This document shows, piece by piece, positions 21,924-40,538 of a DNA stretch of 43,886 bases (positions are counted from its first letter, which is position 1; each line of letters begins with the position of its first letter). This DNA is from Luteolibacter sp. (GTDB taxonomy: Bacteria; Verrucomicrobiota; Verrucomicrobiia; Verrucomicrobiales; Akkermansiaceae): positions 1 to 43,886 of the forward strand of contig JAJTHK010000044.1 of the NCBI GenBank assembly GCA_021298895.1, written 5' to 3'. The notes under the pieces are model-generated. The model saw only the letters and a program-made list of their open reading frames with translations, did no database searches and was not told where the DNA came from. The position numbers were made by a program, and so were the translations under genes.

Positions 21924-24671
21924 ATGAGCAACGCCCCGAATTACAAAGACACGCTGACCTTGCCGCAGACCAGTTTCCCTATGCGTGGGGACTTGGTCGA
22001 AAACGAGCCGAAGCGTTTGGAGATTTGGGAGAAAAACGGACTTTACCATAAAATCACCTCCGCCCGCAAAGCCGCTGGAGCACCTGATTTCATCCTTCAC
22101 GACGGCCCGCCATTTGCAAACGGCGATGTCCACATGGGCACTGCGCTGAACAAACTCCTCAAGGACATGGTGGTGAAATCCAAAACCATGGCAGGTTTCC
22201 ACGCGCCCTTCATTCCGGGTTGGGACTGCCACGGCTTGCCGATCGAATTCAAAGTCGTCAAACAAGCCGCTGGACTTGAGCCAGCGGAAATCCGCCGACG
22301 CTGTACCGAGTTTGCCGCTGGTTTCATCGATATCCAACGCGCCTCATTCCGTCGCCTCGGTGTGTTTGGCGATTGGAAAAATCCTTACCTCACCATGGAT
22401 CCCGCTTACGAGGCGAGCATCCTGCGGGTGTTTGCGAAGCTAGTGGAAAACGGTTGTATCTACCAATCCAAGAAACCCGTTCAATGGTCCTACGGCGCGC
22501 AAACCGCACTCGCGGAAGCGGAAGTCGAATACGCCGATAAAATCTCGCCTTCGATCTTCGTGAAATTTCCCCTCAAAGGGAGCGTTGGCGTCCCACCCGC
22601 ATTATCCAACATCCCGGACATCAACATGGTGATCTGGACCACCACTCCTTGGACACTTCCAGCAAACCTCGGGATCGCGCTGCATCCGGAGTTCACTTAC
22701 GTCGTAGGTAAATTCTCAAATGGTGAAAAAGAGGAAGCGTTCGTCATCGTCCGCGAACTGATCGAAGCGTTTGCCGAAAAGACTGGATACGCCCTTAAAG
22801 AAACTCTCTCTGAAATCAAAGGCAAAGAACTTGAAGGAGCTGAGGCACAGCATCCATTCCTCGATCGCAAATCTAAAATCATCCTCGCCAACTATGTCAC
22901 TACCGAAACCGGAACCGGCGCCGTTCATACCGCTCCTGGCCACGGCGCAGATGACTACGTTGCGGGACAACAAAATGGTTTGGGTGTTCTCTCCCCTGTC
23001 GACGACGAAGGTAAATTCACCGAAGAAGTCGGCGTCGCGGAACTCGTCGGCAAACACGTTTTTCAATCCAACAAGCGCATCATCGAGATTCTAACAGAAA
23101 GCGGTCACCTGCTCGGTCAAGAGGATTACAAACATTCCTATCCACATTGCTGGCGCTCGAAAACGCCTATCATCTTCCGTGCTGTCGAACAGTTCTTCAT
23201 CTCGCTCGACACCCTGCGCGGCCAAGCACTCGAAGAAATCGACAAAGTGAAATGGATGCCTGCATGGGGTCGCAACCGCATCTACGGAACCGTCGAAGCA
23301 CGTCCCGATTGGTGCATTTCCCGCCAGCGCACTTGGGGCGTTCCACTTCCGGTTTTCTTCGATGAAAACAACAAGGCCATCCTCTCTGCTGAACTCGCAA
23401 ACAAGGTCGCCGACCTCGTCGAAAAAGAAGGCACCAATGTTTGGTTCGAAACTTCTGATGAGGATCTCGCCGCAAAACTCGGCCTGCCGAGTGGCTTGAA
23501 AAAAGGCAAAGACACGCTCGATGTTTGGATCGATTCCGGCTGCTCGCACGCTGCCGTGATGGACACGCATCCCGAGCTGCATTGCCCCGCCGATCTTTAT
23601 CTCGAAGCCACCGACCAACACCGCGGTTGGTTCCAAAGCTCACTCATGCTTTCCACCGCCTTCCGCGGTCACGCACCTTACAAATCCGTGATGACCCACG
23701 GCTTTGTGGTCGATAAGGACAAAAAGAAACTCTCGAAATCCGAAGCCGAAAAAGCCGGCAAACCCATCGATGCTGCGCATTTCTACAATCAATACGGCGC
23801 CGACATCGTCCGCCTCTGGGCCTCCAGTGTCGATTGGCAAAACGAAGTTCCGTTTGGCGAAGATCTCTTCAAACAAGTCGCCGAGCCATACCGCCGTTTG
23901 CGTAATACACTCCGCATCCTCTTGGGCAACTTGGATGGCTTCAATCAACAATCAACAATCATCAATCATCAATCGTCAATCCCGTTATTAGATGCTTGGA
24001 TTTTGGAGCGACTCCACGTCGTCGTCAAAGAATGCCTCACCGCTTACGAATCTTTTGAGTTCCGCAAAGTTTTCAACTCGATCAACCAATTCTGCACCAC
24101 GGATCTTTCCGCGATCTATATCGATGCTCTAAAAGACCGCATGTATTGCGATGCGGCGGATTCACCGCGTCGCTTGGCATCACAAGCAGCGATGTACGAG
24201 ATCTTTAGTAGCATCACCCGTTTGCTCGCGCCGATTCTCGCCTACACCGCGGATGAAGCATGGGAACACGCGGCGTTTACTAACGACTGCGTGCACGAAC
24301 AAGATTTCCCAACTGCCAATCCTGCCTTCGCTCCAAGCCAGATCAGTAAAGACGTAGAACGCCTTTTCCAAATCAAAGCCGTGATCCAAACCGCGATCGA
24401 AGCAAAGATCCAAGCCAAGGAATTCACCCGCAACAACGAAGCCGCGATCTCCCTCACAGTTCCCGCATCCGACGCGCATTTGTTAGAAAAACTCACCGAC
24501 CGCGATTTCGCTACCGAGTTTTTCATCATCGCCGAGCTCAAAGTGACCCAAGGAACCGAGCTCTCCGCCACCGCCGCAAAAACTGAGCTCCCACTCTGCC
24601 CCCGCTGCCGTAGACACGAGCCAGTTCTTGAATCCGGTCTCTGCGCGAGATGTGATGAAGTGGTGGCATAG
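21924..24671 (+). CDS. ileS: Isoleucyl-tRNA synthetase
   Basis: 915 aa; class I HIGH-like HDGPPFANGDVHMGTALNKLLKD, KMSKS-like KKLSKSEAEKAG, IleS features VIWTTTPWTLPANLG, GTGAVHTAPGHGADDY, C-terminal CPRCRRHEPVLESGLCARCDEVV zinc finger. Confidence 0.97.
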   Translation: MSNAPNYKDTLTLPQTSFPMRGDLVENEPKRLEIWEKNGLYHKITSARKAAGAPDFILHDGPPFANGDVHMGTALNKLLKDMVVKSKTMAGFHAPFIPGWDCHGLPIEFKVVKQAAGLEPAEIRRRCTEFAAGFIDIQRASFRRLGVFGDWKNPYLTMDPAYEASILRVFAKLVENGCIYQSKKPVQWSYGAQTALAEAEVEYADKISPSIFVKFPLKGSVGVPPALSNIPDINMVIWTTTPWTLPANLGIALHPEFTYVVGKFSNGEKEEAFVIVRELIEAFAEKTGYALKETLSEIKGKELEGAEAQHPFLDRKSKIILANYVTTETGTGAVHTAPGHGADDYVAGQQNGLGVLSPVDDEGKFTEEVGVAELVGKHVFQSNKRIIEILTESGHLLGQEDYKHSYPHCWRSKTPIIFRAVEQFFISLDTLRGQALEEIDKVKWMPAWGRNRIYGTVEARPDWCISRQRTWGVPLPVFFDENNKAILSAELANKVADLVEKEGTNVWFETSDEDLAAKLGLPSGLKKGKDTLDVWIDSGCSHAAVMDTHPELHCPADLYLEATDQHRGWFQSSLMLSTAFRGHAPYKSVMTHGFVVDKDKKKLSKSEAEKAGKPIDAAHFYNQYGADIVRLWASSVDWQNEVPFGEDLFKQVAEPYRRLRNTLRILLGNLDGFNQQSTIINHQSSIPLLDAWILERLHVVVKECLTAYESFEFRKVFNSINQFCTTDLSAIYIDALKDRMYCDAADSPRRLASQAAMYEIFSSITRLLAPILAYTADEAWEHAAFTNDCVHEQDFPTANPAFAPSQISKDVERLFQIKAVIQTAIEAKIQAKEFTRNNEAAISLTVPASDAHLLEKLTDRDFATEFFIIAELKVTQGTELSATAAKTELPLCPRCRRHEPVLESGLCARCDEVVA
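23942..23983 (+). repeat. In-frame heptanucleotide tandem repeat within ileS
   Basis: CAATCAA CAATCAA CAATCAT CAATCAT CAATCGT CAATCCC: six 7-nt units, 42 nt, encoding NQQSTIINHQSSIP. Confidence 0.85.
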
Positions 24672-24681
24672 TTCTTTATTT

Positions 24682-24702
24682 GAAGTTTAAAATTTAAAAT
24701 TT
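24682..24702. repeat. 7-nt-periodic repeat abutting the lspA start
   Basis: GAAGTTT AAAATTT AAAATTT immediately before the GTG start. Confidence 0.6.
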
Positions 24703-36465: not shown

Positions 36466-38047
<1,582 letters not shown>

Positions 38048-40495: not shown

Positions 40496-40538
40496 AAGAT
40501 AAGGGTGAGGAGTGAGTAGTGAATGGTGAAAAGGGAAA
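40494..40538. repeat. 7-nt-periodic repeat in the atpH-atpA gap
   Basis: AAGGGTG AGGAGTG AGTAGTG AATGGTG AAAAGGG from 40501. Confidence 0.65.

Follow-up and report, generated by a model that had tools for sequence, protein, structure and literature searches.

Six tandem heptanucleotides encode part of a linker in the isoleucyl-tRNA synthetase gene (ileS) of Luteolibacter sp., and we conclude that this array probably derives from a dispersed family of heptamer repeats, one arm of which was copied into the gene and kept in frame. The same linker is built from heptamers in about ten relatives, and a linker of the DNA ligase LigA is built in a comparable way.

The ileS array and its context

The window (the whole stretch of DNA analysed, 43,886 nucleotides) corresponds to contig C147 of the home genome (G000), a draft of 2.76 Mb in 190 contigs. 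Among named records, the nearest relatives of its ileS come from freshwater Akkermansiaceae/Verrucomicrobiales MAGs. The features considered here are the following:

21924..24671, + strand: ileS, isoleucyl-tRNA synthetase, intact ORF of 915 aa, matching PF00133, PF08264 and the structures 8c9e and 1ffy
23942..23983, + strand: array CAATCAA CAATCAA CAATCAT CAATCAT CAATCGT CAATCCC, coding for residues 674-687, NQQSTIINHQSSIP
24679..24702, + strand: weak AT-rich heptamer tract TTTAAAA, intergenic, immediately 3' of the ileS stop codon
36381..36459, no strand assigned: intergenic heptamer/14-mer tracts, TTAGAGTCCAGAAG and TCTGGACTCTGGGT
37939..37965, no strand assigned: degenerate heptamer tract GGAAGTT, intergenic
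40505..40530, no strand assigned: intergenic tract of degenerate heptamers, GTGAANN (TTCACNN) family

The product has the domains expected of the enzyme (PF00133, E=2.7e-120; PF08264, E=2.5e-29) and aligns with solved IleRS structures (8c9e, E=8e-241; also 1ffy). The position and the six units given in an earlier note on this DNA were exact, and the uninterrupted frame bears out its statement that they encode NQQSTIINHQSSIP within ileS. Over the whole window the array had a period-7 score of 27, with 11 for the runner-up tract, and none of 300 windows simulated with a first-order Markov model scored above 11; the 7-nt periodicity is thus beyond chance, as in heptanucleotide repeats of the long SSR/STRR type. 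When the same peptide was recoded with random synonymous codons, following the gene's own codon usage, the mean score was 6.3 (P<=1e-4, 20,000 draws), which places the origin of the periodicity in the DNA and not in the peptide. The other heptamer-like tracts of the window are all intergenic.

The array replaces a linker of ordinary length

The array-coded stretch forms a coil where the catalytic and anticodon-binding regions meet, between two helices predicted at residues 646-669 and 688-709. The AlphaFold model behind these limits is poor (shallow alignment; mean pLDDT 63, pTM 0.38) and was used for the coil-between-helices placement alone, which agrees with the 1ffy and 8c9e alignments. The aligned linkers of these repeat-free enzymes (FNPDTDSIPESELLEVDRY in 1ffy, FNPTTDAVAVEDLREVDRY in 8c9e) are practically equal in length to the array linker, at 18-19 residues. 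We therefore conclude that the array replaces the linker and does not extend it. The array had been described as inserted into ileS; with linker length unchanged relative to repeat-free IleRS, simple insertion is rejected. We found neither a target-site duplication nor a clean pair of empty and filled sites, a point against the copying proposed below.

The proposals that the linker is variable and the gene essential were both supported. Across relatives the ileS linker measures 39-57 nt in nearly all species, with or without repeats, and 69 and 84 nt in two. Array-bearing linkers measure 48, 54 or 57 nt and differ from one another by 3-9 nt, never by 21, so that the frame must have been kept by replacement or by compensating indels; the rule that only multiples of three units are tolerated does not describe the history of the site. 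Heptanucleotide repeats are phase-variable switches in some pathogens. By analogy with such cases, e.g., neuO (PMC13001214), changes in unit number could turn ileS on and off, making it a contingency locus. We consider this very improbable, since ileS is essential, the matching frames of relatives are open with no internal stop, and the array is short and imperfect.

Recurrence of arrays at the same site in relatives

Heptamer arrays occupy this ileS position in about ten relatives, with units that differ even between sister species. In an ileS tree built without the linker columns, the arrays fall in at least three separate groups. Within the home clade, the window and four relatives (L092, L052, L053 and L057) have CAATCNN units, and others have AAATTTC (L055), AAATCTC/AAATCCC (L025) or CAATATC (L051); a second group (L034, L061 and L073) has AATCCRC and AAATTTC units, and the third is represented by L060. 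Between the window and its sister L055, the 150-nt DNA flanks are ~83% identical, but no unit is common to the two. Around the relatives' ileS genes, 13 period-7 arrays scoring at least 14 were found in 671 kb, and seven of the 13 were in this linker. Also against copying, some genomes have few copies of the family present in their ileS: in G015, the exact array of three AAATTTC units was found only in ileS. We also noted long near-perfect heptamer arrays just 3' of ileS in two relatives, of AAGACGC (L084:5457-5545) and AACTGAC (L077:6371-6440).

An assembly artefact is conceivable in a draft of 190 contigs, with some other heptamer arrays located at contig ends (C48). It is nevertheless the least credible of the explanations considered, since the ileS ORF is intact and in mid-contig, and independent assemblies, including the single-contig G004, carry arrays at the same site. 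The array itself is real, and an interpretation of it as an isolated slippage tract does not hold, given the similar arrays of some ten relatives and of LigA.

Selection at the protein level would make the linker peptide (polar residues, Ile and Pro, ending in IPLLD) the favoured trait and the DNA repeat its by-product. The array peptides do resemble one another (xSxIxNxQSxIPLLD), and the narrow range of linker lengths would suit this explanation. In the window and in the linkers of ten further species, however, the period-7 score exceeds synonymous recoding (11 of 11 species tested, P 5e-5 to 0.009), and the close relatives L068, L054 and L027 lack the peptide. Selection for the peptide is thus an improbable explanation, and as the cause of the repeat, peptide conservation is rejected by the synonymous-codon null. 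Nor is the peptide conserved among relatives in the absence of the nucleotide repeat, the outcome that the earlier note named as refuting its reading: they differ in both.

Period-7 repeats, unit order and hairpins across the genome

In 0.8 Mb of the home genome we counted 35 arrays of period 7, and no more than 6 for any other period from 4 to 13. The excess was observed both inside ORFs (12 arrays against at most 2 for other periods, in a 673-kb ORF sample) and outside them (56 against at most 10, in ~128 kb). The repeats thus have many copies, mostly outside genes, and their density per kb is ~25 times lower in ORFs, which would be expected if selection removes most coding copies. Their units belong to families shared between loci, to a far greater extent than composition would give, with 169 near-identical array pairs against a null mean of 47 and maximum of 64.

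The arrays also have a preferred unit order. In 1.06 Mb of the home genome there are 29 AATC chains of at least three units, and on the AATC strand the CAATC family proceeds from AT to GT in 15 cases (one in reverse) and from AA to AT in 10 (three in reverse). We found 23 copies of an ordered 22-mer in 11 of 41 congeneric genomes, against two copies in two genomes for a permuted order. A search by nhmmer with a single short seed gave no matches; by blastn without masking, at least eight copies have in common a 5' flank close to CTCTTCATTCAAA. The ileS array follows this order (AA-AA-AT-AT-GT) and is identical over 33 nt to part of an array on contig C8; one of 29 permuted ileS unit orders matches over the same length, so that the match to the dispersed family is, taken alone, suggestive. 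In L057, ileS contains 27 nt that recur exactly in arrays at other places in the home genome.

AATC arrays are followed within 150 nt by inverted GATT arrays 29 times, against 3.7 expected and 7 in the opposite arrangement, these counts being of overlapping unit pairs that represent a smaller number of independent loci. With the strict patterns used, the excess was not detectable in G016 and G004. The inverted pairs are predicted to fold into hairpins of about -32 to -50 kcal/mol. The AATC strand of the arms has no stop codon in any frame, and the opposite strand of many units does have stops; a stop-free AATC strand fits the orientation seen in genes.

The main rival to the copying of an arm is a local origin, in which a heptamer present by chance in the linker was expanded by replication slippage and its units were then made uniform in each lineage by slippage or conversion, with no DNA from outside. 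Many bacteria have an excess of heptanucleotide repeats, for which polymerase slippage has been proposed as the origin (PMC4679880 and PMC4692102, both citing Mrazek 2007). Units are more alike within one ileS array than between sister species, and the linkers of relatives with no array (NPQYT/NPEYT, e.g., AATCCGCAATACAC) contain near-repeat sequence that resembles a seed. Against a local origin, the units fall into few families common to several loci, and the same unit order is found at unrelated loci; slippage alone predicts neither. We regard a local origin as unlikely, while giving it more weight than the other alternatives. Shared families, order, flank and inverted pairing argue for the arrays of this genome being copies of dispersed elements and not products of independent slippage, with the ileS array as one arm of such an element. 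The genome-wide period-7 excess, the common units and their order also uphold the suggestion that the ileS array and the intergenic heptamers are alike in kind.

Arrays in LigA and other coding sequences

In LigA of the home genome, a Kinase-PolyVal domain is inserted within the adenylation domain, and a heptamer array lies at the 3' junction of this insert. The insert spans ~230 aa (PF18762 at residues 297-425; L158:737-3658, G000:C26), and is present in some congeners and absent from others (e.g., G004, G026 and G062). Heptamers spell the LigA linker in 12 of the 19 sequences read, with units that differ between species (AAAATTC, AAATCTC, CAATCCC, AAAATCC and CCATCCA). Most of these arrays are clearly above the synonymous null, the two weakest having P ~0.01. 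Further coding cases were found in a U32 peptidase (IKNHQSKIINHQSI) and in a UvrA-like protein of G004 with several SLLTSHSALGT-type stretches. Peptides resembling that of ileS are thus present in other proteins too, as the earlier note had proposed to check. The UvrA-like protein (L191:11485-17076) has 1863 aa, repeated UvrA-type domains and at least four heptamer arrays.

Other arrays of the home genome lie close 5' of start codons (L135:10159-10182, L145:3814-3837, L157:11197-11230 and L181:1854-1877), where an effect on translation initiation is possible. The genes that follow look, by eye, like fmt, trmB, radC and leuD.

Palindromes at the linker and Y1 transposases

REP elements, which are short dispersed palindromes in inverted pairs, flank Y1 (RAYT-type) transposases. 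In some relatives the ileS linker contains dispersed short palindromes and not heptamers. The palindrome CGGACTTTAGTCCG codes for part of the linker in G021 and G032 (L027 and L026); it has 30 copies in G021, five in G032 and none in most other genomes. Many of the G021 copies form inverted pairs, and two flank a Y1 transposase (G021:C31:24616-25237). The CGGACTTTAGTCCG family of G021 thus has the short palindrome, inverted pairs and Y1 transposase of REP/BIME elements, and its copy in the ileS of G021 and G032 is a REP-like element inside an essential gene.

A near-palindrome, GGGCATCTTGCCC, has 113 copies in G035 and 28 in G028, and several relatives (L059, L070 and L077) have a single copy of it in their ileS linkers. 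The G035 genome (4.8 Mb) has 42 matches to the Y1 transposase family (PF01797) beside these 113 copies of a REP-like palindrome.

No copying enzyme was identified for the heptamer arrays. A link with Y1 transposases was considered and rejected, the transposases not being near arrays in the five cases checked; the single instance of proximity, ~0.5 kb apart on G000:C124, comes from coordinates only.

A model for the origin of the array

We favour the copying of one arm of the dispersed family into ileS. Intergenic copies have the form CTCTTCATTCAAA-AATCAAA-AATCAAC-AATCATC-AATCGTC-AATC..., often with an inverted copy within 150 nt, with which they can form a long hairpin. A stop-free AATC arm entering a coding sequence would be translated into a soft polar peptide, and would survive only where the protein is tolerant and the net change in length is a multiple of three. 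The IleRS linker that joins the catalytic core to the anticodon-binding helices would be such a place. Once there, the array may turn over through conversion of units, through slippage or by being replaced again, which would give sister species different units at this site. Movement of copies in trans, and its route, is the step that we infer.

More broadly, ordered-heptamer hairpins and REP palindromes may both be recurrent donors, the active repeat family of the moment repeatedly overwriting, in frame, the tolerant linkers of essential proteins in this genus (IleRS, LigA, perhaps UvrA and the U32 peptidase), so that their sequence would track the repeat pool and not protein ancestry. We advance this generalization tentatively, as a real possibility. 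Linkers of essential proteins appear to be drawn again and again from repetitive DNA.

Heptanucleotide repeats are common in bacteria and have been treated as intergenic, their origin and spread being unexplained. In the present case they are found repeatedly in linkers encoded by essential genes, with a preferred unit order that would not be predicted from plain slippage. The ileS and ligA linkers show how non-triplet repeats may shape proteins and, as aligned sites with a tree, are suited to asking about copying in trans.

Comparison with known repeat systems

The P6b element of the Nostoc tRNA-Leu intron is a heptanucleotide hairpin whose degenerate heptamers, with a GATT/AATC core, pair as the inverted arrays described here would; it is, however, an RNA intron element from another phylum. 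REP/BIME elements share with our arrays the dispersal in inverted pairs, and one such family (CGGACTTTAGTCCG) occupies the same ileS linker in two relatives. The heptamer arrays themselves differ in not being short perfect palindromes and in having no link to Y1 transposases that we could find.

A literature search on heptad tandem repeats in Verrucomicrobia returned nothing. In many bacteria, heptanucleotide repeats have been reported to be the commonest class of long SSR and to be mainly intergenic (PMC4679880, PMC4692102). Cyanobacterial STRRs and the TAACTGA (PMC4679880) and GGGNATC (PMC4692102) repeats resemble our arrays in their 7-nt period, in degenerate units that combine a constant core with variable positions, in enrichment outside genes with many copies per genome, in occasional convergent inverted pairs and in scattered phylogeny. 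In contrast to the mainly intergenic repeats of those reports, the arrays described here are found time after time, throughout the genus, in the same linkers encoded by essential genes, with replacement of units and a genus-wide unit order.

Rickettsia palindromic elements (RPEs; PMC10969869) are the known example of dispersed repeats that stay in frame within housekeeping genes, and they also have intergenic copies. We likewise found heptamer arrays in frame in ileS, ligA and the U32 peptidase gene, together with dispersed copies. RPEs are whole palindromes of ~150 bp, inserted with a conserved peptide and with empty sites in relatives, whereas the heptamer arrays represent one arm, replace a linker of similar length without lengthening it, and belong to unit families that differ between species. 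The heptamer case thus works similarly to that of the RPEs and falls outside their definition, which entails a whole palindrome and a true insertion.
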